Shown: piece by piece, positions 1,591 through 35,733 of the stretch
Layout of the letters: the number at the start of each line of letters is the position of its first letter
How positions within the stretch are numbered: the stretch's first letter is position 1
Notes under the pieces: model-generated
The model's database searches: none
What the model saw: the letters and a program-made list of their open reading frames with translations, nothing else
What the model was told of the DNA's origin: nothing
Assembly (NCBI GenBank): GCA_025998875.1
Contig: AP024675.1
Location: 2,081,549 to 2,145,548, forward strand
Reading direction: 5' to 3'
Source of the DNA: Bacteroidota bacterium
Lineage (GTDB): Bacteria > Bacteroidota > Rhodothermia > JANXDC01
DNA: 64,000 nucleotides
Made by a program: the position numbers and the translations under genes

Positions 1591-5028
<3,438 letters not shown>

Positions 5029-6280: not shown

Positions 6281-6310
6281 GTTTCAATCCCATCTTGGTT
6301 CGATTAAAAC
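6281..6310 (-). CRISPR. Isolated CRISPR repeat, leader-distal end
   Basis: A 30-bp copy of the repeat found at 8703-8864, in the same orientation, with one substitution (GTTTCAATCCC instead of GTTTCAACCCC on the plus strand). On the minus strand it ends in ATTGAAAC, the usual 5' handle of type I-B crRNAs, so this copy is the more canonical one. It is separated from the next repeat by 2392 bases of gene-bearing sequence and no spacer follows it on the left. The stop codon and last seven residues of the neighbouring minus-strand gene are encoded inside it. Confidence 0.9.
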
Positions 6311-7186
6311 GGTAACCTGAAAAGAATAAGCAAAATTGTCCCGGGGTTCCTCATCGTCGTGCAGCCCCAAATTGTGGGGTATAGATATCGCCATGACTTG
6401 CCAGCCCTCCGGGGCGCCCTTTGCGGCTTCTTTCCTAAGGTTATGCAGGTACATATCCTTAAGTAGTGCAGCAAAAATGCCGCCCCGTGCCTCCATATCG
6501 GTGCTGCGCGCCTGCTCCGTTTCCCGATCATAGACGAAAAACTGCATATAGGTTGCGCACGTGTAGGTCATCACTTTCTCTAGCGCCTTTTTGTATTTGC
6601 CCCGGAAACGCCAAATCCGGTTGGCCTCCTTGCTGTTTTCGGCTACAGCCAACACGTACAATGACGGCACATTCAGGCCGGCAAGCGTTTTTCTTATTCC
6701 GTTGGCAATGATGTACCTTTCCTCCTCCGTCATGTTTTCTAAGTCTACGGCATAGGTACCCAAGTCTGCAGGGAAAGAGTCCAGCTTGGTAAAGAAGTGT
6801 AAAATGTGCCGGTTTGTGCCTTTCTTGGTAAGCCCGTTTTTGAAAAGAAAGCGGTAAAATTCCCTGGATGGTATTATCGATTCCATCAGCACGTTTTCTG
6901 GCGAGCCCGCATACAGGTGGGTGAAATACGTTACCTTTACGCCGCCCGGCATACTGTATTCCAGGGGGTCCAGCGGCATGTTGTGATAGGGCTGAAACAG
7001 CGCCTTCAGCTGCCTGTGCTTTTCTTCGGGGGCTATGATCAGGATGCTTGCCTCGCGGCTGCCTACAACCACAGAAACAAAACCGTCTATGTCGCCGGCC
7101 AGCTTCTCAAACTGCCGCAGATAACCATTAATGTCGGCGGGCGAAAACAGGCCGATGTAGCCCGGGTGATTGTGTACGTCCAGCAA
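6284..7186 (-). CDS. Unknown protein in CRISPR-bounded cargo; C-terminus encoded by a CRISPR repeat
   Basis: A 300-residue frame with a TTG start, of natural composition (GYIGLFSPADINGYLRQFEKL, VSVVVGSREASILIIAPEEKH, ERYIIANGIRKTLAGLNVPS). I recognise no family, and see no signal peptide, membrane helix or nucleotide-binding motif. The same frame is open upstream of the preceding stop (RIGQTGGPVYLL), so it may be the end of a longer gene cut by a TAG at 7217-7219. The last residues (LIEPRWD) and the TGA come from the CRISPR repeat at 6281-6310, so the natural end is probably lost. The stretch is visibly less GC-rich than the flanking genes, consistent with foreign origin. Confidence 0.5.
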   Translation of the reverse strand: MLDVHNHPGYIGLFSPADINGYLRQFEKLAGDIDGFVSVVVGSREASILIIAPEEKHRQLKALFQPYHNMPLDPLEYSMPGGVKVTYFTHLYAGSPENVLMESIIPSREFYRFLFKNGLTKKGTNRHILHFFTKLDSFPADLGTYAVDLENMTEEERYIIANGIRKTLAGLNVPSLYVLAVAENSKEANRIWRFRGKYKKALEKVMTYTCATYMQFFVYDRETEQARSTDMEARGGIFAALLKDMYLHNLRKEAAKGAPEGWQVMAISIPHNLGLHDDEEPRDNFAYSFQVTVLIEPRWD

Positions 7187-7216
7187 ATAGACAGGCCCAC
7201 CCGTCTGGCCTATGCG

Positions 7217-7690
7217 CTACCTTACCTGGCGCAGTGTATCCGAAAGGGGTATGGCCGTGTTGATCTCGCGGCCCAGGGTAACAAGGGGCTTGTGCAGGAA
7301 ATGGAGCGCGCCGTCCTGTATACTGAAATACGAAAACAGCCCCTTTTCGTGCCCGCTTAGCCCATAGATGCTTTTTAGCGTTTCGATAGAATCTTCGGGC
7401 TTGCCCGGCCGAACAGGGGTTTTACTGCCCTCTAGGTCGGGGATGGACTCCATTACGACCTCAGGGTGCGCACCCCGGGTGAGGGCTTCTGCCAGTGCGG
7501 CGCTGTCTTTGATGCGCTTACCCCCTGCCCGGTAGGTGACAATCCATTTGCCCGCGATATTTCTTTCTTCGATCTTGCGCCGGGCGCGCTCAAAAAGCTC
7601 GCGCAAGTCGCCGCTACTGATATCGCGGCCCCGCGCGATCTCCTCATAAAGCCACTCTACATATTCCTGTACGACTTGTGCTATTTCTGA
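7217..7690 (-). pseudogene. Fragment of the cargo gene, without a start codon
   Basis: About 155 residues with good coding character (VVQEYVEWLYEEIARGRD, LRELFERARRKIEERNIAGK, IYGLSGHEKGLFSYFSIQDG) lie in a frame that has no plausible start: it becomes coding just where the neighbouring frame stops at 7681, and ends at a TAG at 7217-7219 after which the same frame continues into the next piece. The simplest reading is one gene broken by a frameshift near 7690 and by a stop at 7217. The family is not recognised. Confidence 0.45.
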
Positions 7691-8472
7691 TCGTTCGCTA
7701 TCTCCGATAAGTCTTCTAGCAGGTGCGGTAAGCTTTCCATATACAGATCGCCCCAGCCGTTCGGTATATTGGGCAGGTTCTCCCTGAAGAAGGGTATCCA
7801 AAAGTTTTCGAGCAGCTTCTCTGGACCGAACAGGGCCGGAAACAGCAGGGGCGCCCACAGGGCCCTGTAGTATTCTTTCGGCTTGTCGGGCAAGGGATTC
7901 TGCCTCGAATCGAATTTGTCTTGTGTAAAGCTGAAATAGTATGCGGTCATTGAATCCGGCCTCCAGTCCACGCTCTCCAGAAGCAGGGCCGGTACGTGCG
8001 GCAGATGCAGGCTCTCCAGGGCCAGCGACAAGTCCACGGCTAGACTCCTGTGCGTAAAAGAGCCTATCGATTGCCTGAATGGCTCCTTCGAGCCGGCCAG
8101 CTCGAAAATCCGCCTCAAGCAGGTTCTCGCTTGCTCTCTCAGCTGTTTCCACAAACCGGATAAGCTCGGCGAAGAAGGATCCAGATACGGTGGCAGGATC
8201 AAACCCAGGCCGGGCTTCCCCGATAGATTCAGCCTGTACAGTTCGTAGCCCACCTGATGCAGCACGCCCAGCAGCTCTTCCTGTACTTCGGCCTCCTTCT
8301 TCGTCTCGGGCTCGTATATCATCTCGAAAGGCATAAGCACGAACTTCTCCAGCCAGTTCGAGTCCTCGACGCAGAGCAGCCAGGCCATCATCGCCAATTG
8401 GCCCCCCGGCGATTGATTCAAGAAGTGTAGCGACCGCAGCGTCTTTTCCAGGGGTCCCGTCTGGTTCGCCAT
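7681..8472 (-). CDS. Unknown protein in CRISPR-bounded cargo (possibly the middle of a frameshifted gene)
   Basis: A 263-residue frame from an ATG at 8472 (a GTG at 8487 is also possible). It contains LEKTLRSLHFLNQSPGGQLA, a WLEKFVLMPFEMIYEPETKK helix, LPPYLDPSSPSLSGLWKQL, and a tail rich in aromatic residues (YYRALWAPLLFPALFGPEKL). The competing frame across the same bases is rich in Gly, Ala and Arg and looks like a shadow. Coding sense passes into this frame from the frame upstream at a run of five T near 8473 and leaves it again near 7690, so it may be the central part of a single longer gene. I recognise no family; no Cas8, Cas7 or Cas5 motif is visible. Confidence 0.45.
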   Translation of the reverse strand: MANQTGPLEKTLRSLHFLNQSPGGQLAMMAWLLCVEDSNWLEKFVLMPFEMIYEPETKKEAEVQEELLGVLHQVGYELYRLNLSGKPGLGLILPPYLDPSSPSLSGLWKQLREQARTCLRRIFELAGSKEPFRQSIGSFTHRSLAVDLSLALESLHLPHVPALLLESVDWRPDSMTAYYFSFTQDKFDSRQNPLPDKPKEYYRALWAPLLFPALFGPEKLLENFWIPFFRENLPNIPNGWGDLYMESLPHLLEDLSEIANDQK

Positions 8473-8702
8473 AAAAACGTTCCTCACTGACTAGCTTGAT
8501 GTCCAACACAATGCCGTGTAGCAGGCCCTGACCTGCACTTTTGCTGTCAGCCAAACGTACCAGGCGGCTTGTGTCGCTAAAGTACCCTACCAGTTCGCCA
8601 CCACCGATGTCGCTTTCTTTCTGTGGCAAACTTACACTAATTTCCAGGCCCAGTTCCTCTTTTATGGCCTGCAGGTCCCCCAAACCAAACAGCACCTCCA
8701 AA
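8470..8702 (-). pseudogene. N-terminal fragment of the cargo gene, cut by a CRISPR repeat
   Basis: The first 75 or so residues (LFGLGDLQAIKEELGLEISV, GGGELVGYFSDTSRLVRLAD, LLHGIVLDIKLVSEERF) are natural-looking and run straight out of the repeat at 8703-8732, where the frame meets a TAA. Only a TTG at 8701 could start it, with the GGGG of the repeat as a possible ribosome site. Coding sense moves to another frame at a T5 run near 8473. The true start was probably lost at the repeat junction. Confidence 0.4.
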
Positions 8703-8864
8703 GTTTCAACCCCATCTTGGTTCGATTAAAACGCCGCGTCGGCTGCGGCTTCTGGCCGAAAACATCCGGTTTCAACCCCATCTTGGTTCGATTAAAACTT
8801 TCTGCTCTAGGGCTGCAGCGAATCTCTGAGCTATGTTTCAACCCCATCTTGGTTCGATTAAAAC
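8703..8864 (-). CRISPR. Minimal CRISPR array, three repeats and two spacers
   Basis: Three identical 30-bp repeats at 8703-8732, 8769-8798 and 8835-8864 alternate with two unrelated spacers of exactly 36 bp (8733-8768, 8799-8834). Reading the minus strand, the repeat begins GTTTTAATCGAACC and ends GGGGTTGAAAC; the RTTGAAAC end is the crRNA 5' handle of type I-B and related systems, so transcription is probably leftward with the leader to the right of 8864. A fourth repeat sits at 6281-6310. The matching cas genes are probably those at 30.7-35.6 kb, which include the Cas6 needed to cut this RNA; that link is inference. Confidence 0.95.
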
Positions 8865-9602: not shown

Positions 9603-11180
9603 ATGAGCAAGCAGCTTGATATTGGGACCCTGGAGACCTGGCTCTGGGAGGCCGCCTGCGCCATCCGCGGCCCGGTGGACGCACCCAAGTTCAAGGACTA
9701 CATCCTGCCCCTCGTCTTCCTCAAGCGCCTCTCGGACGTGTTCGACGACGAGGTGCAGCGGGTGGCCGCCGACTTTGGTCTGACGCTGGAATCGGCCCTT
9801 GAGCTGGTGGAGGATGACCACGATCTGGTGCGCTTCTACATCCCACCCCAGGCCCGCTGGTCCCACATCCGCACTCTGCCCGTTCAAGGACTGGGGCAAC
9901 AGTTGACCGACGCCGTGCGGGCCGTGGCCCGCGAAAACCCCCGCCTGAGCGGCGTCATTGACATCACCGACTTCAACGCCACCACCGCCGGCCAGCGCAT
10001 CGTGGACGACCCCTACCTGCACCGTCTGGTGCAGGTGCTCTCCCGGCACCGCCTGGGCCTGCGCGATGTGGAGCCGGACATCCTCGGCCGGGCTTATGAG
10101 TACCTCCTGCGCAAGTTTGCCGAGGGCGCGGGCCAGTCGGCCGGCGAGTTTTACACTCCGCGTATGGTGGGCATTCTTATGGCCCGCCTTCTCGACCCTG
10201 AACCAGGCATGGACGTGTACGACCCGGCCTGCGGGTCCGGCGGCCTGCTGGTCAAGACCTACCTGCGCTTTCTGGAGAAGTACGGCGAGCCCCAGAACGG
10301 CCGCCTGAAACTCCCCGGTCACGTGGCCGAAATCCGTGTCTTCGGCCAGGACATCAACGCTTCAGCCTACGCTATGGCCTGGATGAACGTGGTCATCCAC
10401 GACATCCAGGACGCGGACATCCGCCTGGGCGACACCATGCGCAGGCCCGCCTTTCTGGACGAGTCCGGCCGCCTCCGACGGTTCGACCTGGTGATTGCCA
10501 ACCCCATGTGGAATCAGGACTTTCCCACCGAGGTGTACGAACACGACCCCTACGGACGCTTTGGCTACGGCACGCCCCCCGCCTCCAGCGCCGACTGGGG
10601 CTGGGTGCAGCACATGGTGGCCTCGTTGAAGGAGACGGGCCGCATGGCGGTGGTGCTGGACACGGGCGCGGTGAGCCGGGGCAGCGGCACGCAGGGCAGC
10701 AACCGCGAGCGGGACATCCGCAGGCGCTTTATCGAAGGGGACCTGACGGTGCCCGGCGACCTCATCGAAGCGGTGATTCTGTTGCCTGAAAACCTCTTCT
10801 ACAACACGACTGCGCCGGGTATCATCATGGTCATCAACAGGCAAAAGCGCTATCCGGGCGAAATCCTGCTCGTCAACGCTTCCCGCCTCTTCGTCAAGGG
10901 GCGCCCCAAAAACGAGCTGACCGAGGAGCACGTGGAGCAAATCGCCCGCCTTTACCATGAGTGGCGGGAAGAGGAAGGGTTGAGCCGCATCATCACCAAC
11001 CAGGAGGCGGCGGCCAACGACTACAACCTTCGCCCCAGCCGCTACGTGGCCCAGAACGACGCCGAGGAGGTCCTGCCCTTGGAGGAAGCGGTGGTGTTGC
11101 TAAAGGAGGCCGAAGAAGAGCGCGCGGCGGCCGACCGTAAGTTGAACGAGGTGCTCGGGGTCCTGGGACTGAGAAGGTAA
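9603..11180 (+). CDS. hsdM: Type I restriction-modification system, DNA methyltransferase subunit
   Basis: A 525-residue adenine-N6 methyltransferase. The N-terminal HsdM domain (LETWLWEAACAIRGPVD, YILPLVFLKRLSDVFDDEV) precedes the catalytic domain with motif I YDPACGSGGLLVKTYL near residues 205-220 and motif IV NPMW near 300, a variant of NPPY/F. It uses S-adenosylmethionine and works as an M2S complex with HsdS. The ATG at 9603 is preceded by AGGAAAGGAG. The gene is complete and has two bases between its stop and the next ATG, so it heads the RM operon. Confidence 0.97.
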   Translation: MSKQLDIGTLETWLWEAACAIRGPVDAPKFKDYILPLVFLKRLSDVFDDEVQRVAADFGLTLESALELVEDDHDLVRFYIPPQARWSHIRTLPVQGLGQQLTDAVRAVARENPRLSGVIDITDFNATTAGQRIVDDPYLHRLVQVLSRHRLGLRDVEPDILGRAYEYLLRKFAEGAGQSAGEFYTPRMVGILMARLLDPEPGMDVYDPACGSGGLLVKTYLRFLEKYGEPQNGRLKLPGHVAEIRVFGQDINASAYAMAWMNVVIHDIQDADIRLGDTMRRPAFLDESGRLRRFDLVIANPMWNQDFPTEVYEHDPYGRFGYGTPPASSADWGWVQHMVASLKETGRMAVVLDTGAVSRGSGTQGSNRERDIRRRFIEGDLTVPGDLIEAVILLPENLFYNTTAPGIIMVINRQKRYPGEILLVNASRLFVKGRPKNELTEEHVEQIARLYHEWREEEGLSRIITNQEAAANDYNLRPSRYVAQNDAEEVLPLEEAVVLLKEAEEERAAADRKLNEVLGVLGLRR

Positions 11181-11182
11181 TC

Positions 11183-12541
11183 ATGCCCAAGACCGATCTG
11201 CAGGAGAGCGAAACGCTGGAGTTCAAGCGCCAGTGGACCGATCGGGCCCTGGAGGACCTGGCGGCCTTTGCCAACACGCGGGGAGGGACGCTTCTCGTGG
11301 GCATTCGCGAAGATGGCGAAATCGTGGGGGCAAAGGTGGACGACCGGGAAATCCAGCGGATAACGAACCTCATCGCCGCCCATCTGGGCATCACGCCGTC
11401 CCTTCGGGTGGTGGAGATGGAGGGACGTCCGGTGCTGAAAATCCGGGTAGAACCGGCAGCCGGCCTGGTCCCTTACGGCGGACGGTATCTTCGGCGGGTG
11501 GGTACGACCAACCGCGATTTTGCGCCGGACGAACTGGCCCGCCACCTCCTGGAGCGCTCCGGCCGCAGTTGGGACGGTTTGCCCGGCGAGTGGACGCCGG
11601 GCGAGATAGACCCGGAAGTGTTTGCCCACTTTGCCCGTCTGGCCCGCGCCCGGCTTCCCCACCTGGATCCGGAAAACCCCGAGCAGGCGCTGCAGAACCT
11701 CGGGCTTTTGAGTGACGGGCGGCTCACGAACGCCGGGGTGTTGCTTTTCGGGAAGCGCCCGCAGCGGCTCTTTCCTCAGGCCCAGGTGCGCATCGGGATT
11801 TTCCGCGGCACCCAGATTCTCGACAGCCACGACTTTCAGGGCACGCTCTGGGAGCAACTGGAGGGGGCCATGGCGCGCTTCCGCCAGGTGCTCAAGGTGC
11901 GCTTTGAGATCAAGGTCGAGGAGGCCACGCTTGAGGGGCTCCAGCGCAAGGAGGTCTGGGAGTATCCGCTGGATGCCCTGCGCGAGGCGGTGGTCAATGC
12001 GCTTGTCCACCGCGATTACACCTATCCGGCCGACATTCAGATTCGGATCGAAGAGGATCGTCTGGAGGTCTGGAGCCCGGGCGAACTGCCGCCGCCGCTG
12101 ACGCCGGAGGCGCTCTACGGCCCCCATGCGTCGGTGCTGCGCAACCCGCTGATCGCTCAAGCCTTCCATTTTGCCGGCGTGATCGAGCGCTGGGGCACGG
12201 GGACCACGCGCATCGTGCAGCTTTGCCGGGGGCAGGGCCTGCCCGAGCCTGAATTCGCCAATTGGCAGGGCGGGGTGCGGGTGGTCTTCAGCCAGGACCC
12301 CTACACGCCGGAGCGCCTGCGGGCGCTGGGCCTGAACGAGCGGCAGATTCAGGCGGTGCTGTATGTGAGAGAGCGGGGAAGCATCACCAACAAGGAGTAT
12401 CAGCAGCTCACAGGGGTAAGCAAACGAACCGCGTCCAGCGAACTTTCGGAACTGGTGGGAAAGGGTATTCTCATCAAGACCGGCGGTCAGCGGGGACGCG
12501 GAACTACCTATTGGGCAAAAATTGGGAGAATTGGGCAATGA
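11183..12541 (+). CDS. AlbA_2/Schlafen-type ATP-binding protein with RecG-like C-terminus
   Basis: A 452-residue protein between hsdM and hsdS. It opens with an AlbA_2 (Schlafen AAA_4) domain: ESETLEFKRQWTDRALEDLA, AFANTRGGTLLVGIREDGEI, then YLRRVGTTNRDFAPDEL. A HATPase_c_4 domain follows around residues 265-345 (ALREAVVNALVHRDYTYPAD, IVEDRLEVWSPGELPPPLTP-like, FAGVIERWGTGTTRIVQLC) and a winged helix ends it (ITNKEYQQLTGVSKRTASSE). Such proteins often accompany RM and other defence operons as regulators or accessory effectors; the actual role is not established. Its stop overlaps the hsdS start (ATGA), and its last codons lie inside an 11-bp tandem repeat. Confidence 0.9.
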   Translation: MPKTDLQESETLEFKRQWTDRALEDLAAFANTRGGTLLVGIREDGEIVGAKVDDREIQRITNLIAAHLGITPSLRVVEMEGRPVLKIRVEPAAGLVPYGGRYLRRVGTTNRDFAPDELARHLLERSGRSWDGLPGEWTPGEIDPEVFAHFARLARARLPHLDPENPEQALQNLGLLSDGRLTNAGVLLFGKRPQRLFPQAQVRIGIFRGTQILDSHDFQGTLWEQLEGAMARFRQVLKVRFEIKVEEATLEGLQRKEVWEYPLDALREAVVNALVHRDYTYPADIQIRIEEDRLEVWSPGELPPPLTPEALYGPHASVLRNPLIAQAFHFAGVIERWGTGTTRIVQLCRGQGLPEPEFANWQGGVRVVFSQDPYTPERLRALGLNERQIQAVLYVRERGSITNKEYQQLTGVSKRTASSELSELVGKGILIKTGGQRGRGTTYWAKIGRIGQ

Positions 12542-12562
12542 TTGGGCAAGAATTGGGCAAAA
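12510..12562 (+). repeat. Five-copy imperfect 11-bp tandem repeat over the stop/start junction
   Basis: Five units based on ATTGGGCAAAA start at 12510, 12521, 12530, 12541 and 12552; the second is 9 bp long and the others 11 bp. The repeat spans the end of the AlbA_2 gene and the first codons of hsdS, including the ATGA overlap. Units of 11 bp are not a multiple of three, so gain or loss of a unit would change the frame of both genes here. Confidence 0.85.
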
Positions 12563-13864
12563 CGACCAACGCAACGGCGACCGACCTACCCGAAGGCTAC
12601 AAGATGACCGAACTCGGCCCCCTGCCCGAAGAGTGGCGGGTGGTAAGGTTGGGGGAGGTGGTCACGTTAAAGAAAGGCAGAAAACCGCCAAAGCTGTTGA
12701 AGACTTACCAAAGAGGAAGTCTCCCTTATCTTACTGCGGCGTATTTTCGGAGCGGCACCGTTGAAGCATGGATACCTTCTTCCTCTGTGGAAGAATCTTC
12801 CTACTTGTGACTCGCAAGGTGTCGTTCTCATCTGGGACGGTTCAAAGGCAGGACAGGTCTTTACCGGATTGGAAGGAGTCCTTGCCTCAACAATGGTGAA
12901 AATAGACCCATCAGAGGACCTCAGTCGGAACTATTTGGCCTTCTTCTTATCAACTCAGTTTGAGACTCTTAATAGCCAGACTACGCGGCTCAACTATTCC
13001 CCATGTTAGCAAAACGTTTTCAATAATATTCTCTTCCCCCTCCCACCCCTGCCCGAACAGCGCGCCATTGCCCATGTACTGCGGGCGGTGCAGCGGGCGA
13101 AGGAGGCCACGGAGCAGGTCATCGCCGCGGCGCGGGAGCTGAAGAAGAGCCTCATGCGCCACCTCTTCACCTACGGCCCCGTGCCCGTGGACCAGGCCGA
13201 CGCCGTGGAGATGCAGGACACCGAAATCGGCCCCCTCCCCGCCCACTGGCGGGTGGTGCGGTTGGGGGAGGTGGGAAAAATTATCACCGGCAAAACTCCG
13301 CCTACATCAAAACCGGAATACTGGAACGGCCCTATTCCGTTCATAACCCCTGTAGATCTAAACGGCACGCCAATTTCCCGAGCATCAAGAGCAATCTCGC
13401 GTGAGGGGTTGCACAAAGCAAAGCCGCTTCCGAGAGGGGCAGTACTAGTGAGCTGTATCGGCTATATTGGGAAAACGGGCATTGTGGATACGGAAGTTGC
13501 GACTACCAATCAGCAAATTAACGCAATTATCGCTGATGCGGACATGGCCTATGAGCTTTACCTGCTCTACTTATTGACTCACATGGCCCCGCAACTTGAA
13601 GGACGAGCGCGAATGACCACTGTTCCTATTTTGAGCAAGTCTGGATTATCAGTTGTCCCCATCCCCCTCCCGCCCCTTGACGAACAGCGCGAGATTGCCC
13701 GCCTGTTGCAGGCGGTGGACGAGAAGATCCGCGCCGAGGAGGGGCGCAAGGCGGCGCTGGAGGCGCTCTTCAAAACCCTGCTGCACGACTTGATGACGGC
13801 CCGGCGGCGATTGCCGGCGGAATTCATTGCCCGGTTTGCGGAGGCAGGCGATGAATCGCTATGA
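12538..13864 (+). pseudogene. hsdS: Type I restriction specificity subunit, frameshifted at three places
   Basis: The two target-recognition domains are clear: each begins with the same signature (ELGPLPEEWRVVRLGEVV near 12606 and EIGPLPAHWRVVRLGEVGKI near 13224), and each ends in a conserved coiled region (LPPLPEQRAIAHVLRAV; LPPLDEQREIARLLQAVDEK). Total length, about 440 codons, suits HsdS. The frame changes near 12800 (before VVLIWDGSKAGQVF), near 12985 (into RGSTIPHVSKT) and near 13017 (back, into NNILFPLPPLPEQ), leaving stops at 12808-12810 and 13007-13009. All the expected motifs are present once frames are joined. The second half from about 13030 to 13864 is intact. If real, the lesions inactivate specificity; sequencing indels are an equally good explanation. 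Confidence 0.85.
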
Positions 13865-14513
13865 TCCCGAGAAACACCGCCGTCGGTCCATCCGGCTGAA
13901 GAGGTACGATTACGCCCAGCCCGGCGGGTATTTCGTTACCATCTGCACCTACGAACGGGCCCACCTGTTTGGGCAGGTGGTGGACGGGGAAATGGTGTTG
14001 AACGCGTTCGGGCGGATTGTGGGGGAAGAATGGTTTCGTTCCGCGGAAATACGCGCCGAAATTGAATTGTATCCCGACGAATTTGTCATTATGCCCAACC
14101 ATATCCATGGGATTGTTTGGATTGTGGAAACCGATGTAGGGGCGCACGGCCGTGCGCCCCTACACAACGGTCAATTATCACGTCCACCACGTTCCTTGGG
14201 CGCGTTTGTTGCGGGGTTCAAATCCATCGTCACCAAACGCATCAACGCCCTGCGGGGCACGCCCGGCGCGCCGGTGTGGCAACGCAATTATTACGAACAT
14301 ATCATCCGGACGGAATGGGCCCTGCACGCCATCCGGCAGTACATTGCCGACAACCCGTTGCGCTGGCACCTGGACCGCTACAACCCCGCCGCGTCCGGCG
14401 CCGACCCGCTGGCCCGCGACCTGTGGCGCCTGTTGCAGGAAGACGCCCGCCCGCGTGAAGATGTCCCCACGGACGACCTGGACGACCCGGAGGTCGGCTA
14501 TGATCCGGTATGA
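13851..14513 (+). CDS. REP-associated tyrosine transposase (RAYT)
   Basis: A 220-residue Y1-type HUH transposase. Motifs: an N-terminal RRRSIRLKRYDYAQPGGYFV block with TICTYERAHLFG, the HUH metal-binding motif MPNHIHGIVWI (near residue 80), and the C-terminal WQRNYYEHIIRTEWALHAIR with YIADNPLRWHLDR that carries the catalytic tyrosine region. Family members act on REP palindromes as domesticated single-copy transposases. The ATG at 13851 lies inside the last codons of hsdS, and the end overlaps the hsdR start, so it is wedged within the RM operon with no spare bases. It carries a REP-like palindrome in its own coding sequence. Confidence 0.93.
   Translation: MNRYDPEKHRRRSIRLKRYDYAQPGGYFVTICTYERAHLFGQVVDGEMVLNAFGRIVGEEWFRSAEIRAEIELYPDEFVIMPNHIHGIVWIVETDVGAHGRAPLHNGQLSRPPRSLGAFVAGFKSIVTKRINALRGTPGAPVWQRNYYEHIIRTEWALHAIRQYIADNPLRWHLDRYNPAASGADPLARDLWRLLQEDARPREDVPTDDLDDPEVGYDPV
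14136..14163. repeat. REP-like perfect palindrome inside the RAYT gene
   Basis: A 28-bp perfect palindrome with the half-site GTAGGGGCGCACGG. GTAGGGGCG-type arms are typical of REP/BIME elements that RAYT transposases recognise. It is in frame, encoding VGAHGRAPL, placed directly after the HUH motif at the position where many RAYT proteins have a variable insertion. Confidence 0.93.
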
Positions 14514-17478
14514 CACCCGTTTCACCGAACGCCACACCGTTCAAGAACCTATAACTCGCTATTCGGCCCAGGTGCAGTGGCGGGAACTCTCCCAGGAAGA
14601 GGCCGAACGCCTGCGCCGCGGCACCGACGGCCTGCTCCTCTACGAAGTCTTCTTGAACCAAGTGCAAGCCCTCAACGACTTCGTCGGCCTGCGCGAGGCC
14701 GAGGCCCTGGCCGAACGCCTGGCCCGCCTGCGGCCCACCATCCAGGGCAACCTGGAAGCGTGGGAGTACCTGCGCGGCTTGAAGCCGGTCTACGTGCCCG
14801 CGGAAAAGCGGGAACGCAACGTGCGCCTGGTGGACTTCGATCACTGGGAGCGCAACACCTTCCACGTCACCCAGGAACTGCGCTACACCGGCGGCCGCGA
14901 GCCGATCCGCCTCGACATCGCCTACTTCGTCAACGGCATTCCCGTCCTGCTGGTGGAGACCAAAGCAGCCCACAAAAAGGAAGCCCTGGCCGAGGCCCTG
15001 GACCAGGTGCGACGCTACCACGAGCAGGGCGCACCCCTCCTGGCCCTCATGCAGCTTTTCGCCATCACTCACCTGGTGCGCTTCTACTACGGCCCCACCT
15101 GGAACACCGAGCGCAAGGCCCTCATCAACTGGCGAACCACAGCCCGAGCAGGCGGCCAGGGCGATCCGGGGTGGGATTTCGAAACCCTGGTCAAGGATTT
15201 CGTGCACCCCGCGCGCATCGTGCGCGTGTTGCGCGACTTCATCCTCTTTGTGCAGCGCGACGGCGAGCTGAGCAAAGTTGTCCTTCGCCCCCACCAGATG
15301 CGAGCCGTGGAAAAGGTGCTCCAGCGGGCCGAGCAGGCCCTCCAACCGCCGCCCGGCCAGCGGCCCAAGCGCCGGGGCCTCATCTGGCACACCCAGGGGT
15401 CGGGCAAAACCTTCACCATGATCACCATCGCCCGCCGCCTGCTGACCGACCCCATCTTCGCGAGCCCCACCGTGCTCATGCTGGTGGACCGCAACGAGCT
15501 GGAACAGCAACTCTTCGCCAACCTGGCCGCCCTGGGCATGGGCCACGCCCGCGTGGTCGAGTCGAAGCGGGAGCTGCGCGACCTTTTGCGACAGGACTAC
15601 CGCGGCCTCATCGTCTCCACCATTCACAAATTTCAGGGGATGCCGCCGAACATCAACACGCGCTCAAACATCTTCGTGCTCATTGACGAGGCCCACCGCA
15701 CCACGGGGGGCGACCTGGGCACCTACCTGATGGCCGCCCTGCCCAACGCCACTATTCTCGGCTTCACCGGCACGCCCGTGGACAAGAGCGCCCACGGCCG
15801 CAGCACCTTCCAGATTTTCGGCGTGGACGACCCGCCCCACGGCTACCTGGACAAATACGCCATTCGCGAGTCCATCGAGGACGGCGCTACTGTCCCCCTG
15901 CACTACACCCTGGCCGAAAACGAGCTGCGGGTGGACCGGGAGACCCTGGAGCGGGAGTTCCTGGACCTGGCCGAGGCCGAGGGCATCGCCGACCCCGAAG
16001 CGCTGGACCGCATCCTGGAGCGGGCCGTCACCCTGCGCAACATGCTCAAAAGCCCCGACCGCATCCGCCGCGTGGCCCGTTTCATCGTCCAGCACTACCG
16101 CCAGTACGTGGAGCCGCTGGGCTTCAAGGCCCTGCTGGTGGCTGTAGACCGGGAGGCCTGTGCGCTCTACAAGGAGGCTTTCGCCCGCCTCTACGAGGAA
16201 GACCCGCACAACACCTTGCCTCCCGACGCCTTCGAGGTCATCATCAGCGGCGCGCCCAACGACCCGCCACACTTGCGCCGGTACCACCGCACCGAGGAGG
16301 AAGAGCGAGAGATCCGCGACCGCTTCCGCGCCGAGGAGAACCCCAGGTTCCTCATTGTCACCTCGAAACTGCTCACCGGCTTCGACGCGCCCGTGCTCTA
16401 CGCCATGTACCTCGACAAGCCCATGCGCGACCACGTGCTGCTCCAGGCCATCGCCCGCGTCAACCGCCCCTACGAACGGGACGGCCAGCGCAAGACCTGC
16501 GGCCTCATCGTGGACTTCGTGGGCATTTTCGAGCACCTGGAGAAAGCCCTGGCCTTCGATTCCCAGGACATCGAAGGTGTGGTCACCGACCTGGACGTGC
16601 TGCGCCAGCGCTTCGAGGTTTTAATGGCACGGGCCCGCAAGGACGTGCTTCCCCTGGCCGCCGGGTGGGACGACAAGGCCGCCGAGCGCCTCTTGAACCA
16701 CTTCCGCGACGAGGAAACGCGACAGGACTTTTACTCCTTCTACCAGGAGCTGGCCGACCTTTACGAGGTCCTCTCGCCCGACGCCTTTCTCCGCCCTTAC
16801 CTGGACGACTACGCCGCCCTCACCCAGATTTACCAGATGCTCAGGGATGCCTATGAGGGCGTGGAGGCGGACCTGGACCTGCGGGAGATGCGGCGCAAGA
16901 CGGCCGCGCTGGTGCAGCAGCACACGCGCGGCGGGGCGGTGCAGGGGGCCGTGGAGGTCTACGAGATCAACGCCGACCTGCTTCGTCGCCTGGAGGCCAG
17001 CCGCAGGCCACCGTCGGTAGAGGTTTTCAACCTGGTGAAGTCCATCCGCCGGAAAGTGGCGGAGGAAGGCGGGACGAAGCCGTTCCTGCTCACCATCGGC
17101 GAGCGGGCTGAGGCTGTAGTAGAAGCCTTCCAGGAGCGACAACAAAGTGCCCAGGAGGCTCTGGAGGCGCTCAAGGCACTCATCGCCGAAATCAACGCTG
17201 CCGAACAGGAGTTCGCCGAGCAGGGCCTGGAGGCCGAGGCCTTCACGGTCTACTGGCTGCTGCATCGACATCAGGGGATGCACAAGAACGAGGCCCGTGC
17301 TGTTGCCGACGATCTGGTGCAGACGTTCGCTGCCTATCCCTATTGGGCGACCAGCCGGCGCCAGCAGCGGGAGCTGCGCAGCGCCCTCTACAAAGTGCTC
17401 ATTCGCCGCGGCCTGCGCAAAAAAGTGGCCGACGTGGTGAATCACCTTCTTGACATCCTGATGAAGCGCCATGCGTGA
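14500..17478 (+). CDS. hsdR: Type I restriction endonuclease, translocase subunit
   Basis: A 992-residue HsdR. The N-terminal nuclease domain shows LDIAYFVNGIPVLLVETKAA, a PD-(D/E)XK pattern ending in ETK near residues 153-155. The SF2 helicase core follows with Walker A HTQGSGKTFTM near 298, the DEAH box LIDEAHRTTGG near 395 and FTGTPVD near 425, then RFLIVTSKLLTGFDAPVLYA and ARVNRPYERDG, and a helical C-terminus that binds the methylase. It cuts unmodified DNA after ATP-driven translocation. The ATG at 14500 overlaps the RAYT end by 14 bases. The gene is complete, so cutting potential depends on whether hsdS is functional. Confidence 0.97.
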   Translation: MIRYDTRFTERHTVQEPITRYSAQVQWRELSQEEAERLRRGTDGLLLYEVFLNQVQALNDFVGLREAEALAERLARLRPTIQGNLEAWEYLRGLKPVYVPAEKRERNVRLVDFDHWERNTFHVTQELRYTGGREPIRLDIAYFVNGIPVLLVETKAAHKKEALAEALDQVRRYHEQGAPLLALMQLFAITHLVRFYYGPTWNTERKALINWRTTARAGGQGDPGWDFETLVKDFVHPARIVRVLRDFILFVQRDGELSKVVLRPHQMRAVEKVLQRAEQALQPPPGQRPKRRGLIWHTQGSGKTFTMITIARRLLTDPIFASPTVLMLVDRNELEQQLFANLAALGMGHARVVESKRELRDLLRQDYRGLIVSTIHKFQGMPPNINTRSNIFVLIDEAHRTTGGDLGTYLMAALPNATILGFTGTPVDKSAHGRSTFQIFGVDDPPHGYLDKYAIRESIEDGATVPLHYTLAENELRVDRETLEREFLDLAEAEGIADPEALDRILERAVTLRNMLKSPDRIRRVARFIVQHYRQYVEPLGFKALLVAVDREACALYKEAFARLYEEDPHNTLPPDAFEVIISGAPNDPPHLRRYHRTEEEEREIRDRFRAEENPRFLIVTSKLLTGFDAPVLYAMYLDKPMRDHVLLQAIARVNRPYERDGQRKTCGLIVDFVGIFEHLEKALAFDSQDIEGVVTDLDVLRQRFEVLMARARKDVLPLAAGWDDKAAERLLNHFRDEETRQDFYSFYQELADLYEVLSPDAFLRPYLDDYAALTQIYQMLRDAYEGVEADLDLREMRRKTAALVQQHTRGGAVQGAVEVYEINADLLRRLEASRRPPSVEVFNLVKSIRRKVAEEGGTKPFLLTIGERAEAVVEAFQERQQSAQEALEALKALIAEINAAEQEFAEQGLEAEAFTVYWLLHRHQGMHKNEARAVADDLVQTFAAYPYWATSRRQQRELRSALYKVLIRRGLRKKVADVVNHLLDILMKRHA

Positions 17479-17850: not shown

Positions 17851-18003
17851 CTGAGCTTCTGGCCAAACCCGATACCCCGCTTCTCGAGCATCTGGAGGGA
17901 GATGACCCGCCTGGGTGCGGAAATCGCCCATCGGCTGGGGCTGTTCGAGGGAGTGCCCGGCAAAAGGGTTTCTGCTCTCCGCGCTGCCCGAGATAAACGG
18001 CAG
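17851..18003 (+). pseudogene. Decayed copy of the 5' end of cas3
   Basis: From CTGAGCTTCTGGCCAAACCC onward this stretch is nearly identical for about 95 bases to the start of the intact cas3 at 30722, with an indel at CTGGAGGGAGATGACC versus CTGGAGGAGGTGACC that breaks the frame, and alignable but diverged sequence up to about 18003. It would encode ELLAKPDTPLLEHLE before the frame is lost. It is in the same orientation as intact cas3 and no other cas sequence adjoins it. Together with the intact copy it brackets the carotenoid island as a direct repeat. Confidence 0.88.
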
Positions 18004-30069: not shown

Positions 30070-30531
30070 ATGAAGCTCCATCGGCTCTTCCGGCAACAGT
30101 GGGTTCCGGCTCCGTTGGAGGAAGTCTTCGCCTTTTTCGACCGACCGGAAAATCTCAACGAGATCACTCCACCGAGCCTGCATTTCCGGCTGCTTACGCC
30201 CTCGCCTGTTCCCATGCATCAGGGAGCGCTCATCGACTACAGCATCCGACTCCTGGGCATGCCGCTTCGCTGGACCACGTACATCGCCGTCTATGAGCCA
30301 CCCCACTGTTTTGTGGACGTGCAGCTTCGAGGACCTTACAGCTTCTGGCACCACACGCACCGCTTTGAGTCCCACCAGGGGGGCACACAGATCACCGATG
30401 AGGTGCTGTACCTGTTGCCCTTCGGCGTGCTGGGACGTCTGGTCCATGCGCTCTGGGTGCGCCACCAGCTGGAATACATCTTCACGTACCGTCAGGCGCG
30501 CATCCGGGAACGCTTTGGCGGAGAAGGCTAG
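30070..30531 (+). CDS. SRPBCC family protein (cytosolic)
   Basis: A 153-residue protein without signal peptide. It has the polyketide cyclase/START-like pattern FRQQWVPAPLEEVFAFFDRP, NLNEITPPSLHFRL, RWTTYIAVYEPPHCFVDVQL and a long C-terminal helix (LEYIFTYRQARIRERFG). Members bind small hydrophobic molecules. It starts two bases after the photolyase stop and ends the rightward light operon. Ligand-binding proteins of this kind next to photolyases are common, but their task is unknown. Confidence 0.85.
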   Translation: MKLHRLFRQQWVPAPLEEVFAFFDRPENLNEITPPSLHFRLLTPSPVPMHQGALIDYSIRLLGMPLRWTTYIAVYEPPHCFVDVQLRGPYSFWHHTHRFESHQGGTQITDEVLYLLPFGVLGRLVHALWVRHQLEYIFTYRQARIRERFGGEG

Positions 30532-30561: not shown

Positions 30562-30583
30562 CTCCCGGCGTCATTGCCGGGAG
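30562..30583. repeat. Hairpin after the photolyase operon
   Basis: CTCCCGGC (30562-30569) and GCCGGGAG (30576-30583) form a perfect 8-bp stem with a 6-base loop 30 bases behind the last gene. No T run follows, so termination here would need Rho or another factor. It lies between the light operon and cas3. Confidence 0.6.
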
Positions 30584-30714
30584 CTCCAGAGCTGCGTATA
30601 TTGCGATTAGCGGGTGAGGAGCTAGCTCGGATCTCGTCTGCCCCATACAGCGGAAGGTGCTTCCAGAGCTCGCAACGTTAATGTGCAGGGTCCCTGTACC
30701 GGCGCTTCAGGAGC

Positions 30715-32904
30715 ATGGTAGCTGAGCTTCTGGCCAAACCCGATACCCCGCTTCTCGAGCACCTGGAGGAGGTGACCCGCCTGGGTGCGGAAATCGCCCG
30801 CCGGCTGGGGCTGTCCCGAGAGCTGCGCACGAAAGCGCTCCTGGCCTGTGCCCTGCACGATATCGGCAAGGCTACCTCGGACTTTCAGGACTACATCCGG
30901 GGAGGCCGCAAGAAAGCCTATCCCCACGCGCTGGCCTCGCTTCCCTTCGTGCTCGTGGCAGAAGGGATGCTCAATCCGAAGCTGGGACTGGAGCTGACCC
31001 GCTACGAAGCCACCGCTGCCGTGCTCTCGCACCACTCGCCGCTGGGTCCGGAGCTCTACAAGGGCTACGAAAAACCGGAGTACCATCCGGCGCTGCAGGA
31101 GGCGCTCCGTGCGCTCTGGGAGCGGCTTGCGGGGTATGGCGCAGACGGGCTTCCTGTGGTGGACGTGCTCTGGCAGCAGGTACAACACCTCTTGTCTTGC
31201 TCCCCGGCAGCACTGCTCGATATGCCCCAAGGGGGGAAAGAGGAGAGCTGGACGCTGCGCGGTCTACTTCAGCGCTTGCCGGTGGAGGATTTCGCCTGCG
31301 TCAAAGCCGTACTGCACCTGGCCGACTGGCTCGCCTCGGCAAAATGGCCAGACCCGGGACCGCTCTTCCTGCAGGCGGGCAGCCAGGCTGTGCGGGCGCA
31401 TGTAGCCAAGCTCAAGGGACCTCTGCGGGCTTTTCAGCAGAGAGCCGAGCAGACCCGGGACGCGCCGAGGCTCTGGCTCCGGGCACCTACGGGCACAGGC
31501 AAGACCGAGGCGCTGCTGCTCTGGGCAGGCGATGCGGAGCGGCTCATCTACCTGCTTCCCACACAAGCCACGACCAACGCCATGTGGCGCCGACTCCAGA
31601 AGGTGTACGGGGAAGCGCGCGTCGGGCTTGCCCACGGGCGGGCCAGTTACCTGCTCCGGCAAGAAGCGGACGAAGACCCGCTCGATGCGCGCCTCTTCGG
31701 GTCTGTCTTTGCCCGGCCGGTCACGGTGGCCACGCTCGATCAGTACCTGCTTGCCCATCTGCACGGGCGGCACTGGGAGGAGCGCCGTAGTCTTGTGCGC
31801 CGGGCAACGCTCGTGCTCGATGAAATCCACGCCTACGAACCCTATACGCTGGGGCTGCTCCTTGAAGCCCTGCGCCGGGAGCCTCCAGCCCGACTGGCGC
31901 TGGCCAGCGCCACGCTTCCCGAACCGCTTCTGGAGCTTTTTCCCAGAGGCGAGCTCGTAGAGGCCGAGCCCGAACTCTGGGCGCGCTGTCGCCATCGGCT
32001 CACGCTCCGGGAAGGGGCGCTCCTGGAAGAGGGGGTTGAAGGGGCGTTAGCGCACGCCCGAGAAGGGAAGAAGGTGCTCGTGGTGGCCAACACCGTCCGG
32101 GATGCGCAGGCGTTCTACCGAAAGCTTCAGGAGGCGGGCTGGGAGCGCCGGGAGCTGCTGCATGCCCGCTTCATCTTCCGTGACCGGCAGCGGAAGGAAG
32201 CGCGCGTGAGTCGTCCCGAGCCGGGCATGATCTTCGTTGCCACGCAGGTCGTGGAGGTGAGCTTGGACATCTCCTACGACGTGCTCCTGACCAAGATTGC
32301 CCCAGTGGATGCGCTCGTGCAGCGCATGGGGCGTGTCAACCGCCGGGGGGAGCTGCCGCCAGCGCCGGTGTTCGTGTACACGAGCTGGACGGAAGGAAGC
32401 CGGCGCCTCTATGGCGAGGAGATGCTCGCCTGGAGCCGGGACATTCTGGCAGGGCTGTCTTCCAAGCCGAGCGATAGCGACCTGAAAGCGGCAACCAAAG
32501 CGCTCTACCAAAAGGTCATGGCAGGGGAAGAGTGGAAGCGGGAGCTGGACTTGGGGCAGGCGACGCTTGATGAGCTTCAGCGCACGCTCGGTTGCTACAC
32601 GATTGACCTGGCCGATGAGGAGCTTCGGGAGCGCTTTGCCACCCGGCGCGGGATGGTTTCGGTGGAAGTGCTGCCTGCGCAGTTCTGTGAGGAAGCCTAC
32701 GCGCTGCGGGAGCGGGGCGAAGGCTGGCGCTTGCCGGAGCTTCTGATTCCGGTGCCCCTGTGGTGGATTGCCGCTTTTTCGGAGCGGTTTGTTTCGTTAT
32801 CGGATCTGGGTCTGTTGCTTGCCCAGCTGCCCTATGAGACTGAACTCGGGCTCTCTGTGCCGGAGGGCGAAGTCTCCTACCCGGGAGGGTTGATTCTGGA
32901 TTGA
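30715..32904 (+). CDS. cas3: CRISPR-associated helicase/HD nuclease Cas3
   Basis: A 729-residue fusion of HD nuclease and SF2 helicase. The HD part has HLEEVTRLGAEIAR with H18 and LHDIGKATSDFQDY near residue 47; VLSHHSPLG follows. The helicase has Walker A APTGTGKTEALLL near 257, a DEIH box LVLDEIHAYEPYTLG near 368, ATQVVEVSLDIS, and QRMGRVNRRG near 535. Cas3 degrades target DNA after recruitment by Cascade. The gene looks intact with a CAGGAG ribosome site. It opens the cas operon; a decayed copy of its 5' end lies at 17.85 kb. Confidence 0.96.
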   Translation: MVAELLAKPDTPLLEHLEEVTRLGAEIARRLGLSRELRTKALLACALHDIGKATSDFQDYIRGGRKKAYPHALASLPFVLVAEGMLNPKLGLELTRYEATAAVLSHHSPLGPELYKGYEKPEYHPALQEALRALWERLAGYGADGLPVVDVLWQQVQHLLSCSPAALLDMPQGGKEESWTLRGLLQRLPVEDFACVKAVLHLADWLASAKWPDPGPLFLQAGSQAVRAHVAKLKGPLRAFQQRAEQTRDAPRLWLRAPTGTGKTEALLLWAGDAERLIYLLPTQATTNAMWRRLQKVYGEARVGLAHGRASYLLRQEADEDPLDARLFGSVFARPVTVATLDQYLLAHLHGRHWEERRSLVRRATLVLDEIHAYEPYTLGLLLEALRREPPARLALASATLPEPLLELFPRGELVEAEPELWARCRHRLTLREGALLEEGVEGALAHAREGKKVLVVANTVRDAQAFYRKLQEAGWERRELLHARFIFRDRQRKEARVSRPEPGMIFVATQVVEVSLDISYDVLLTKIAPVDALVQRMGRVNRRGELPPAPVFVYTSWTEGSRRLYGEEMLAWSRDILAGLSSKPSDSDLKAATKALYQKVMAGEEWKRELDLGQATLDELQRTLGCYTIDLADEELRERFATRRGMVSVEVLPAQFCEEAYALRERGEGWRLPELLIPVPLWWIAAFSERFVSLSDLGLLLAQLPYETELGLSVPEGEVSYPGGLILD

Positions 32905-32953
32905 ATCCGGCCAATTTTTACTTCAGGGGCGGAGAAAGTCCGAGAGGAGGCTC

Positions 32954-33502
32954 ATGGAGGAGCAGAAACGTCCGGAAGCGCATATCCTGACGGACGAAGA
33001 GTTCGAGCTACTGCGCACCAGCGGGATCAAAATCAACTACTGGGTTATCTGTTCTCGGAAGGTCTGGTTCTACGCAAAGGGCCTCTGGATGGAGCCCCTT
33101 TCTGAGCGCGTAGCGCTGGGCCGCCTGTTGCATGAACGCGTCTACCGCGGGCTTTCGCGCCGGGAGGTACTGCTCGATAATCTCATCCGGATCGATGTGC
33201 TGGAAGGCGAGGATCGGGTACTGGAGGTCAAGTACTCCCGTAAGCTGGTCCGGGCAGCGCGCCTGCAGGTTGGCTACTATCTGTTGTATCTGCACCGGCG
33301 CGGGGCAGGCAAGCTCACCGGGGAATTGCGCTTTCCCCGGGAACGGCGTCGGGAGGAAGTGTATCTGGATCCGGAGCTGGAGCAAGAGGTTGTCCATGCC
33401 CTGCGGGGTGTGCAGGAAATAGAGGCGTTGCCCACGCCGCCGGCAGCGGGTTTCATGCCGCTGTGCCGTCGATGTGCGTACGCGGAATTGTGTTGGGGGT
33501 AA
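32954..33502 (+). CDS. cas4: CRISPR-associated nuclease Cas4
   Basis: A 182-residue RecB-like nuclease with an iron-sulfur cluster. One cysteine lies in WVICSRKVWFYAKG near residue 33 and three in the C-terminal CRRCAYAELCW. The nuclease core shows RVALGRLLHERVY, IRIDVLEGEDRVLEVKYSRK and ARLQVGYYLLYL, the D-E-K and QLxxY elements. Cas4 trims prespacers and helps select the PAM during adaptation. It lies 49 bases after cas3 and two bases before cas1. Confidence 0.96.
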   Translation: MEEQKRPEAHILTDEEFELLRTSGIKINYWVICSRKVWFYAKGLWMEPLSERVALGRLLHERVYRGLSRREVLLDNLIRIDVLEGEDRVLEVKYSRKLVRAARLQVGYYLLYLHRRGAGKLTGELRFPRERRREEVYLDPELEQEVVHALRGVQEIEALPTPPAAGFMPLCRRCAYAELCWG

Positions 33503-33504
33503 GC

Positions 33505-34512
33505 ATGCCGCAGTCGTATTACATTTTTCGGAGTGGACGTTTGCGTCGCCGTCAGAATACGATTTACCTGGAATGTGATGATAACGGTCAGGTACAGAAG
33601 CAACCGATCCCGGTGGAGAATGTGCGTGATCTGTACCTGTTTGGCGAGCTGGATCTGAATACGCGCCTGCTTGTCTTTCTGGCGCAACAGGAGATCGTGG
33701 TGCACTGCTTCAATTACTACGGTTTCTACGTGGGCAGCTTCTATCCTCGGGAGGGGAACGTAAGCGGACATGTGCTTGTGCGGCAGGTGGAGCACTATCT
33801 CATCCCGGAACACCGGCTTGCCATTGCCAGGGAATTCGTCTCCGGCGCGCTTTTTCACATGCGGCACAACCTGCGCTACTATCAGAATCGAGGCAGAAAC
33901 CTGCAGGAGGTGATCGACGGGATCGAGGCCGTGGCCTCCCTGCTGGACTCCGCGCTGGATGTGCCAACCCTGATGGGCCTGGAGGGACAGGCCCGGGAGC
34001 TCTATTACCGTGCTTTTACGGACATTCTGGGGCTCGAGGAGCCCTTTGAGAAGCGAGTCCGGCGGCCACCGAATAACCCGATCAATGCGCTCCTGTCCTT
34101 CGGCAACACGCTGCTCTATACAGCCGTGCTGAGCCAGATTTACCTTACCCAGCTCAACCCCACGGTGAGTTATTTGCATGAGCCCTCAAGGCGGCGTTTT
34201 TCTCTGGCCCTGGACCTGGCCGAGGTGTTCAAGCCGCTTATCGTCGATCGGCTCATTTTCCGGCTTTGGAACAGACGCATGATTCAGGAATCGGATTTTG
34301 AGCCCATCGGGCAGGCCGAAGGGCTCTATTTAGGAGAGCGGGCTCGAAAGGTCTTTGTGCGCGAATTCGAGGAAATGCTCGCCACGACGGTTCAGCATCG
34401 GCGCCTAAACCGTGCTGTTTCCTATCGACAGCTGCTCCGGTTAGAGGCCTACAAGCTTATTCGGCATCTGATCGGTATGGAACCCTATAAAGCGCTGAGG
34501 GCCTGGTGGTAG
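33505..34512 (+). CDS. cas1: CRISPR integrase Cas1
   Basis: A 335-residue Cas1 with MPQSYYIFRSGRLRRRQNTI, LNTRLLVFLAQQEIVVHCFN, the PPNNPINALLSFGNTLLYTA segment and the catalytic histidine region YLHEPSRRRFSLALDLAEVF. It inserts new spacers together with Cas2. The ATG at 33505 behind GGGGGTAAGC is chosen; an in-frame start at 33463 would overlap cas4. All conserved blocks of I-B-type Cas1 are visible, so adaptation should be possible in principle. Confidence 0.97.
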   Translation: MPQSYYIFRSGRLRRRQNTIYLECDDNGQVQKQPIPVENVRDLYLFGELDLNTRLLVFLAQQEIVVHCFNYYGFYVGSFYPREGNVSGHVLVRQVEHYLIPEHRLAIAREFVSGALFHMRHNLRYYQNRGRNLQEVIDGIEAVASLLDSALDVPTLMGLEGQARELYYRAFTDILGLEEPFEKRVRRPPNNPINALLSFGNTLLYTAVLSQIYLTQLNPTVSYLHEPSRRRFSLALDLAEVFKPLIVDRLIFRLWNRRMIQESDFEPIGQAEGLYLGERARKVFVREFEEMLATTVQHRRLNRAVSYRQLLRLEAYKLIRHLIGMEPYKALRAWW

Positions 34513-34514
34513 CC

Positions 34515-34778
34515 ATGTACGTAGTGGTGGTCTACGACGTAGAACAAAAGCGCGTAGGAAAGGTCTGCCAGTTCCTGCGTCGCTATCTGAACTGGGTGCA
34601 GAACAGCGCCTTTGAGGGCGAGCTGACCGAGGGCCAGCTCGAGGAGGTGATCGCCGGTATCCGGGATATAGTCAACCGCCGCTCCGATAGCGTGTATTTT
34701 TACGTGATTCCAGACCGCCGGTGGTGCCGGCGTCGGGTGGTGGGCGTGGAGAAAAACATCACCGATGCGATCCTTTAG
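34515..34778 (+). CDS. cas2: CRISPR-associated Cas2
   Basis: An 87-residue Cas2 with the standard first strand MYVVVVYDV followed by RVGKVCQFLRRYLNWVQNSA and FYVIPDRRWCRRRVVG. It forms the structural core of the Cas1-Cas2 integrase. A GTG at 34506 is in frame but the ATG at 34515, two bases behind the cas1 stop, gives the conserved N-terminus. Confidence 0.96.
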   Translation: MYVVVVYDVEQKRVGKVCQFLRRYLNWVQNSAFEGELTEGQLEEVIAGIRDIVNRRSDSVYFYVIPDRRWCRRRVVGVEKNITDAIL

Positions 34779-34784
34779 AGATTC

Positions 34785-35558
34785 ATGCGGTTGCGTATTG
34801 CCTTAAGACCTCTTCAGGGTTCGGTTCTGTTGCCCTGGCACTACCCCGTACAGCTGCAGGCCCTGGTATATCGCTGGATTTCGGCCGCCAACGCCCAGTT
34901 GGCCAGAAAGCTGCACGATCAGGGCTTTGCGTATGCCTCCCGGCGCTATAAGCTCTTTGTGTACTCTCTGCTGTACGGCGGCCAGAGCCGTGCCGAAAGG
35001 GCCGGGATCCGTATGGAAGGTCAGCTCTCATTTTGGATCGCCTCCCCGATGCGGGAGCTGGTGGAGGCGGTAGCGGCCGGGCTGTTGCAGCGTTCCGAGG
35101 TCGAGCTGGGTGAGGTCCTGCTTCAGGTGGAGCAGGTACTCGTGGAACCCTCCCCGAATTTTTCCGGGCCCCGGGTGCGGATGCAGACCCTCTCGCCCCT
35201 TGTTGTCTCCACCGGCCTGCAGCAGGGGGGGCGTTTGGAGAAGCGTTTTCTTGATCCCTCGGAGCCGGACTTTTCCCGGGTGCTGGGCGAGAACCTGCGC
35301 CGAAAAGCCGCTCTGCTCGGTATCCCGGAAGGAGAGGGGGAGGTTCGTCTGGAGCCCCTGCGCATGCGAAGCAGGCTGTTTCGCGTGCACGGCACAAACG
35401 TGCGCGCCTGGGAAGGGCAATTTTATCTGCAGGCCCCGGTGGAGCTGTTACAGGTGGGCTACGAAGCGGGCCTGGGGGAACGCAATGGACAGGGATTCGG
35501 CATGGTGCGGCTGCTGCTCGATGGCCCTCCCGGGCGCCGTACACGGAGCGTGGGATGA
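34785..35558 (+). CDS. cas6: CRISPR RNA endonuclease Cas6
   Basis: A 257-residue Cas6 with an N-terminal ferredoxin fold (LRIALRPLQGSVLLPWHYPV, QLQALVYRWIS), the likely catalytic histidine at H19, and the C-terminal glycine-rich loop GLGERNGQGFGMV. It cuts repeat RNA to leave the 8-base handle. In type I-B loci cas6 usually comes first; here it follows cas2 by six bases and closes the operon, an unusual order that hints at rearrangement. The array it should process lies 26 kb away. Confidence 0.93.
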   Translation: MRLRIALRPLQGSVLLPWHYPVQLQALVYRWISAANAQLARKLHDQGFAYASRRYKLFVYSLLYGGQSRAERAGIRMEGQLSFWIASPMRELVEAVAAGLLQRSEVELGEVLLQVEQVLVEPSPNFSGPRVRMQTLSPLVVSTGLQQGGRLEKRFLDPSEPDFSRVLGENLRRKAALLGIPEGEGEVRLEPLRMRSRLFRVHGTNVRAWEGQFYLQAPVELLQVGYEAGLGERNGQGFGMVRLLLDGPPGRRTRSVG

Positions 35559-35638: not shown

Positions 35639-35659
35639 TCCAGAGGGCTGTACAAGAGG

Positions 35660-35733
35660 CGCGCGCGGAGGGATTCGAACCCCCAACCGGCGGATCCGAA
35701 GTCCGCTGCTCTATCCAGTTGAGCTACGCGCGC
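35660..35733 (-). tRNA. tRNA-Arg (anticodon TCG)
   Basis: The minus strand folds into a full cloverleaf: acceptor GCGCGCG paired with CGCGCGC, D-arm GCTC...GAGC with AACTGGATA in the loop, anticodon stem GCGGA/TCCGC around loop CTTCGGA (anticodon TCG, reading CGA and other CGN codons), and T-arm GGGGG TTCGAAT CCCTC. The discriminator base is G and CCA is not encoded. It marks the right-hand edge of the accessory region. Confidence 0.97.

Follow-up and report, generated by a model that had tools for sequence, protein, structure and literature searches.

A type I-B cas locus that has likely lost its Cascade genes in a Bacteroidota genome

What remains of a CRISPR (clustered regularly interspaced short palindromic repeats) system when its nuclease, adaptation and processing genes are complete but no genes for the effector complex Cascade lie beside them? 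The question is raised by a 64,000-nucleotide stretch of DNA from a Bacteroidota bacterium (positions 2,081,549 to 2,145,548 of contig AP024675.1, assembly GCA_025998875.1), hereafter called the window. Here cas3, cas4, cas1, cas2 and cas6 are arranged head to tail on the forward strand at 30715-35558. We consider it likely that this locus is what survives of a type I-B system after the loss of Cascade, and with it of interference. The CRISPR defence of this organism is probably a recently crippled leftover, and not something new.

All five reading frames are open, and alignment with relatives indicates that the conserved family motifs are retained in every product, including the HD and helicase motifs of Cas3. 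The five genes are thus complete, as the original prediction from this DNA had held. The residues among these motifs that we take to be catalytic were assigned from general knowledge of the families. The best PADLOC models for cas3, cas4, cas1 and cas6 (Cas3b, Cas4b, Cas1b and Cas6b) are those of type I-B; cas2 was identified by its similarity to the cas2 genes of HRbin23 and HRbin24, not by a library scan. HRbin24 and HRbin23 also carry the closest operons as judged by Cas1 (67% identity), and the window Cas3 is 64% identical to Cas3 of both HRbin23 and G003, a genome of the same class. The hallmarks of type I-B that are present are therefore Cas3 with an HD domain, cas4 together with cas2 and a cas1 of the I-B kind, and the Cas6 nuclease. 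Those that genome searches failed to find are the signature subunit Cas8b and the backbone subunits Cas7 and Cas5.

The original prediction that cas8, cas7 and cas5 are absent from the window was confirmed. A permissive local tblastn search of the whole window with cas8b, cas7 and cas5 of relatives gave a lowest E value of 0.02. Upstream of cas3 are an open reading frame (ORF) resembling polyketide cyclase (30070-30531), then photolyase and carotenoid oxidoreductase genes, none of which is a Cascade gene. The 184 bp before cas3 contain no cas5 remnant that scores better than shuffled cas5.

Cascade genes might lie elsewhere in the genome, and the proposed search for cas8b, cas7 and cas5 was therefore run on the whole assembly (G000), a single contig of 2,354,932 bases (2.35 Mb) with a stated completeness of 100. 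It came back empty. Cas7 (PF01905, PF05107 and a two-row profile made from the most similar Cas7 proteins) and Cas5 (a two-row profile) gave nothing at E <= 1, nor did the cas8b protein of G003, a single-sequence query that a very diverged Cas8 could escape. PF03787, which represents the type III RAMP subunits (Cmr/Csm), also gave nothing at E <= 1, either in G000 or in the same-genus genome G001. Positive controls were obtained in relatives. Of 14 named control genomes, 4 have matches to PF01905 and 4 to PF05107 (the Cas7 of G003 matches PF01905 at 2e-13), the Cas7 profile matches in G003, G005, G009 and G027, and the Cas5 profile matches in G003 and G005. PF03787 has five matches in G003 and six in G005, and the Cas8b query recovers G003 only as its own source, with no match in G005.

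Because cas8b, cas7 and cas5 are not found in a single-contig genome, loss of Cascade is the best reading, not relocation. The original prediction had allowed that a rearrangement either separated or deleted the Cascade block; deletion agrees with the genome-wide absence, whereas separation does not. A block that moved elsewhere would suit a rearranged region, with a cas3 relic 13 kb from the intact gene and a 29-kb stretch that is absent at this place in G001. However, the empty searches for cas7, cas5, cas8b and RAMPs contradict such a move, barring divergence beyond the reach of the profiles, and we rejected it as extremely unlikely. Likewise, the suggestion that Cas3 and Cas6 serve complex genes elsewhere is not supported, since none are found in the assembly; a type III complex served by Cas6 was rejected on the empty PF03787 search. 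G000 has a single real cas1 locus. A candidate second adaptation locus, a sub-threshold Cas1 match at G000:C1:1769592-1769873, was rejected because it falls inside a 568-amino-acid ORF that is RecN-like, a label read from its sequence without a family scan.

Alternatively, a plasmid or mobile element outside the assembly might supply Cascade in trans, so that the chromosomal half still works. Such an arrangement could account for five intact genes, and cas3-type loci do occur on plasmids, where 212 of 72,556 records match, all at less than 60% identity. However, no close plasmid relative was found (the best match has 28% identity over 89%), and the assembly is a single contig of full stated completeness. 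In addition, the array has been reduced to two ordinary spacers, unlike that of an active system. We regard supply in trans as unlikely.

The arrangement of related loci indicates what is missing. When the window Cas3 is used as the query, 18 of 394 genomes of the phylum match at E <= 1e-30, the source genome included. In 16 of the 17 other loci, cas5 lies directly upstream of cas3 (10 identified by PADLOC, that of G003, and 5 by similarity), and the remaining locus (L016) has merely 467 bases of contig before cas3, which is too short to show cas5. Among these 18 best loci, to which the count is confined with secondary matches left out, the window operon is the sole tested cas3 locus without cas5 upstream. 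A separate search yielded Cas3 matches in 23 of 60 genomes at E <= 0.001; 14 of the 23 are weaker than 1e-30 and fall outside the cas5 count.

The same 17 loci include no second genome with a Cascade-free operon like this one, given that 16 have cas5 and one is too short. This argues against the possibility that the five genes are selected for a job that does not need Cascade, such as naive acquisition or DNA repair by Cas4-Cas1-Cas2, a general helicase-nuclease activity of Cas3, or RNA trimming by Cas6. Passages of PMC8730458 do call highly derived cas operons with unknown role enigmatic. Five open genes with conserved motifs would also be expected of a working module, and a promoter-like site precedes cas3 itself (Table 1). 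However, the array has no sign of growth, and selection for a Cascade-free job seems improbable to us.

Table 1. Positions in the window of the cas genes, the repeats and associated features
Feature	Position	Strand	Details
cas3 (HD nuclease and helicase)	30715-32904	+	729 amino acids; PADLOC Cas3b 2.6e-129; TIGR01587 1.4e-65
cas4	32954-33502	+	182 amino acids; PF01930 2.5e-42; PADLOC Cas4b 9.5e-45; aligned with Cas4 of HRbin23 and G003
cas1	33463-34512 (ORF)	+	likely start 33505, which lines up with the starts of relatives in the alignment; PF01867 6.1e-91; PADLOC best model Cas1b; TIGR03641 (type I-B Cas1) 5.3e-129
cas2	34506-34778	+	90 amino acids; 59-62% identity to cas2 of HRbin23/HRbin24; aligned with relatives
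cas6	34785-35558	+	257 amino acids; PF01881 2.7e-27; PADLOC Cas6b 5.6e-63; 44% identity to Cas6 of HRbin23/HRbin24
Promoter-like site before cas3	30574-30602	+	9 of 12 matches; weak evidence; 1 found versus a mean of 0.1 in shuffles
Relic of second cas3	17851-18002	+	first ~48 codons, frameshifted; 152 bp
CRISPR array remnant	8703-8864	+	three identical 30-nucleotide repeats, two 36-nucleotide spacers
Fourth repeat copy	6281-6310	+	one base different; 2,392 bases from array
Insert of broken genes	6311-8702	-	2,392 bases, exactly between two repeats; lower GC
tRNA-Arg(tcg)	35658-35733	-	adjoins cas6; marks the right end of the stretch that G001 lacks at the same place

In type I systems, Cascade that carries a CRISPR RNA (crRNA) recruits Cas3 to DNA. 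Because recruitment of Cas3 requires Cascade, the locus is presumably unable to interfere: its Cas3 would no longer be brought to a target. The most economical history would begin with a I-B system, probably one that once had two closely related cas3 copies, which then lost its effector block. The cas8b-cas7-cas5 genes, which in relatives are directly upstream of cas3, would have been lost, and cas3-cas4-cas1-cas2-cas6 left intact. The loss would be recent, as the remaining cas genes have not yet decayed. Cas6 may still cut the repeat transcript and Cas4-Cas1-Cas2 may continue to insert new spacers, but the product would go unused.

The second cas3 copy is represented by a relic, which the original prediction had correctly placed near 17.9 kb. 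The relic aligns to 30722-30868 with a score of 164, whereas four control stretches reach 26-33 and the reverse complement reaches 23. Its tblastn pieces are 87-88% identical to the window Cas3, and its first ~95 aligned bases, counted on the alignment, are ~95% identical to intact cas3. Any match to cas5 upstream of the relic is at or below the level of shuffled cas5. The relic ends beside a gene that, from its sequence, appears acyltransferase-like.

The position of cas6 had also been taken as peculiar, on the premise that the usual I-B order is cas6-cas8-cas7-cas5-cas3-cas4-cas1-cas2. As far as cas4, this order is indeed seen in G003 (cas6-cas8b-cas7-cas5-cas3-cas4), which belongs to another branch and whose cas6 is 27% identical to that of the window. 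However, the nearest operons differ. HRbin23 has the order cas7-cas5-cas3-cas4-cas1-cas6-cas2 on a 6.5-kb contig (BEHZ01000096.1), and HRbin24 has cas4-cas1-cas6-cas2, beginning at the contig start. Because both nearest operons place cas6 after cas1, a cas6 near the operon end needs no rearrangement, and we discarded its position as a sign of one. Comparison of gene order in relatives, which the prediction had proposed, thus upholds the missing block upstream of cas3 and not the displacement of cas6. The only peculiarity of order in the window operon is that cas2 and cas6 are swapped, and this swap does call for a rearrangement. HRbin23 and HRbin24 (L005 and L006) have in common an unusual cas1-cas6-cas2 order, in which cas6 separates the two adaptation genes.

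Approximately 22 kb from the cas operon lies an array remnant of four repeats and two ordinary spacers, and we assume that it belongs to the five cas genes. A genome-wide search that allowed up to three mismatches found only these four repeat copies, compared with none for a reversed-pattern control, and an array-finding script saw no other CRISPR array in the window. Neither spacer matches phages or viral contigs. The fourth repeat is set apart from the rest by an insert with a guanine-plus-cytosine (GC) content of 53-56% per kilobase versus 62% overall. Minus-strand reading frames of the insert continue into the flanking repeat on either side, with one in-frame stop near 7217. One piece weakly resembles models of the JAB domain (E 0.0041) and carries an HNHP...S..D motif that we take to be JAB-like (JAB metalloprotease). 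The only terminal repeats seen are two 7-base direct matches, and relatives of the insert genes were found in none of plasmids, viral contigs, Pfam or solved structures. The insert looks like a foreign fragment sitting where a spacer would be. It might be an oversized-integration product of a maintained Cascade-free module in which Cas3 and Cas4-Cas1-Cas2 would process DNA and insert it with no targeting by crRNA, although we think this very unlikely.

The larger region also differs between genomes of the genus. In G001, a gene matching 4977-6194 is followed within ~100 bases by tRNA-Arg (99% identity over 82 bases). At this place G001 lacks the 29-kb stretch at 6195-35653, which holds the array, the cas operon and genes for restriction, carotenoids and photolyase. 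Counterparts to parts of it occur elsewhere in that genome, where neither cas3 nor cas1 has a match. After the tRNA-Arg in G001 is an ORF that reads as P-type-ATPase-like. In the window, 9603-17478 carries type I restriction-modification genes (HsdM-, HsdS- and HsdR-like ORFs, labels again read from sequence), and a REP-type transposase-like ORF at 13827-14513 overlaps the start of the HsdR-like frame.

Several points weigh against loss of Cascade and of interference. The five genes are intact although their neighbours, the second cas3 and the insert in the array, show plain damage, and an intact five-gene module could still be under selection. The expected junction has no scar of cas8, cas7 or cas5, so that deletion is deduced from the order in relatives and not seen directly. 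Cascade could be encoded on a plasmid that the assembly lacks, and a Cas8 too diverged from that of G003 would be missed by a single-protein search. Loss of Cascade remains the reading that we favour. The locus is a clean single-contig case in which the type I effector has probably been lost and the nuclease, adaptation and processing genes are intact, and it could show how long such genes outlast interference. It also cautions that cas3 and cas1 alone are insufficient for calling a CRISPR system functional.

The finding adds one more example to a known kind: ample documentation exists of partial and isolated cas loci (passages of Zhang and Ye 2017, PMC5294841). There, 12% (236 of 2001) of type I cas loci are counted as isolated from any array, and some are treated as remnants. 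An isolated locus comprises three or more cas genes and has no array in the surrounding 10 kb. The window locus fits this description, with five cas genes and the nearest repeat ending at 8864 versus the cas3 start at 30715. What defines the class is that the array is absent or far away, whereas the window locus is without Cascade too. Repeated loss or inactivation of interference components is described as a trend in passages of PMC8730458. Passages of PMC12669027 and PMC11237760 contain no description of a Cascade-free cas3-cas4-cas1-cas2-cas6 locus, and none of such an arrangement was found among the titles and opening lines of abstracts listed in literature searches for Cascade-free type I loci, which is not proof of absence.

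The type I-B operon of G003 shares the cas3-cas4 order and a similar Cas3 with the window, but differs in its upstream order and its diverged cas6, and has type III Cmr genes alongside. I-B CRISPR-associated transposons represent the opposite loss, in which Cascade is kept and Cas3 and the adaptation genes are dropped. They resemble the window locus in that a I-B system is partly degraded (passages of PMC8730458). Their arrangement of Cascade beside Tn7-like genes was not found here as regards Cascade; transposition genes were not searched for. The type I-B operon of HRbin23 has the same cas3-cas4-cas1 order, with proteins 61-67% identical, and likewise has cas6 and cas2 downstream of cas1. 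It differs in that cas6 precedes cas2, instead of following it as in the window, and in that cas7 and cas5 are still present directly upstream of cas3.

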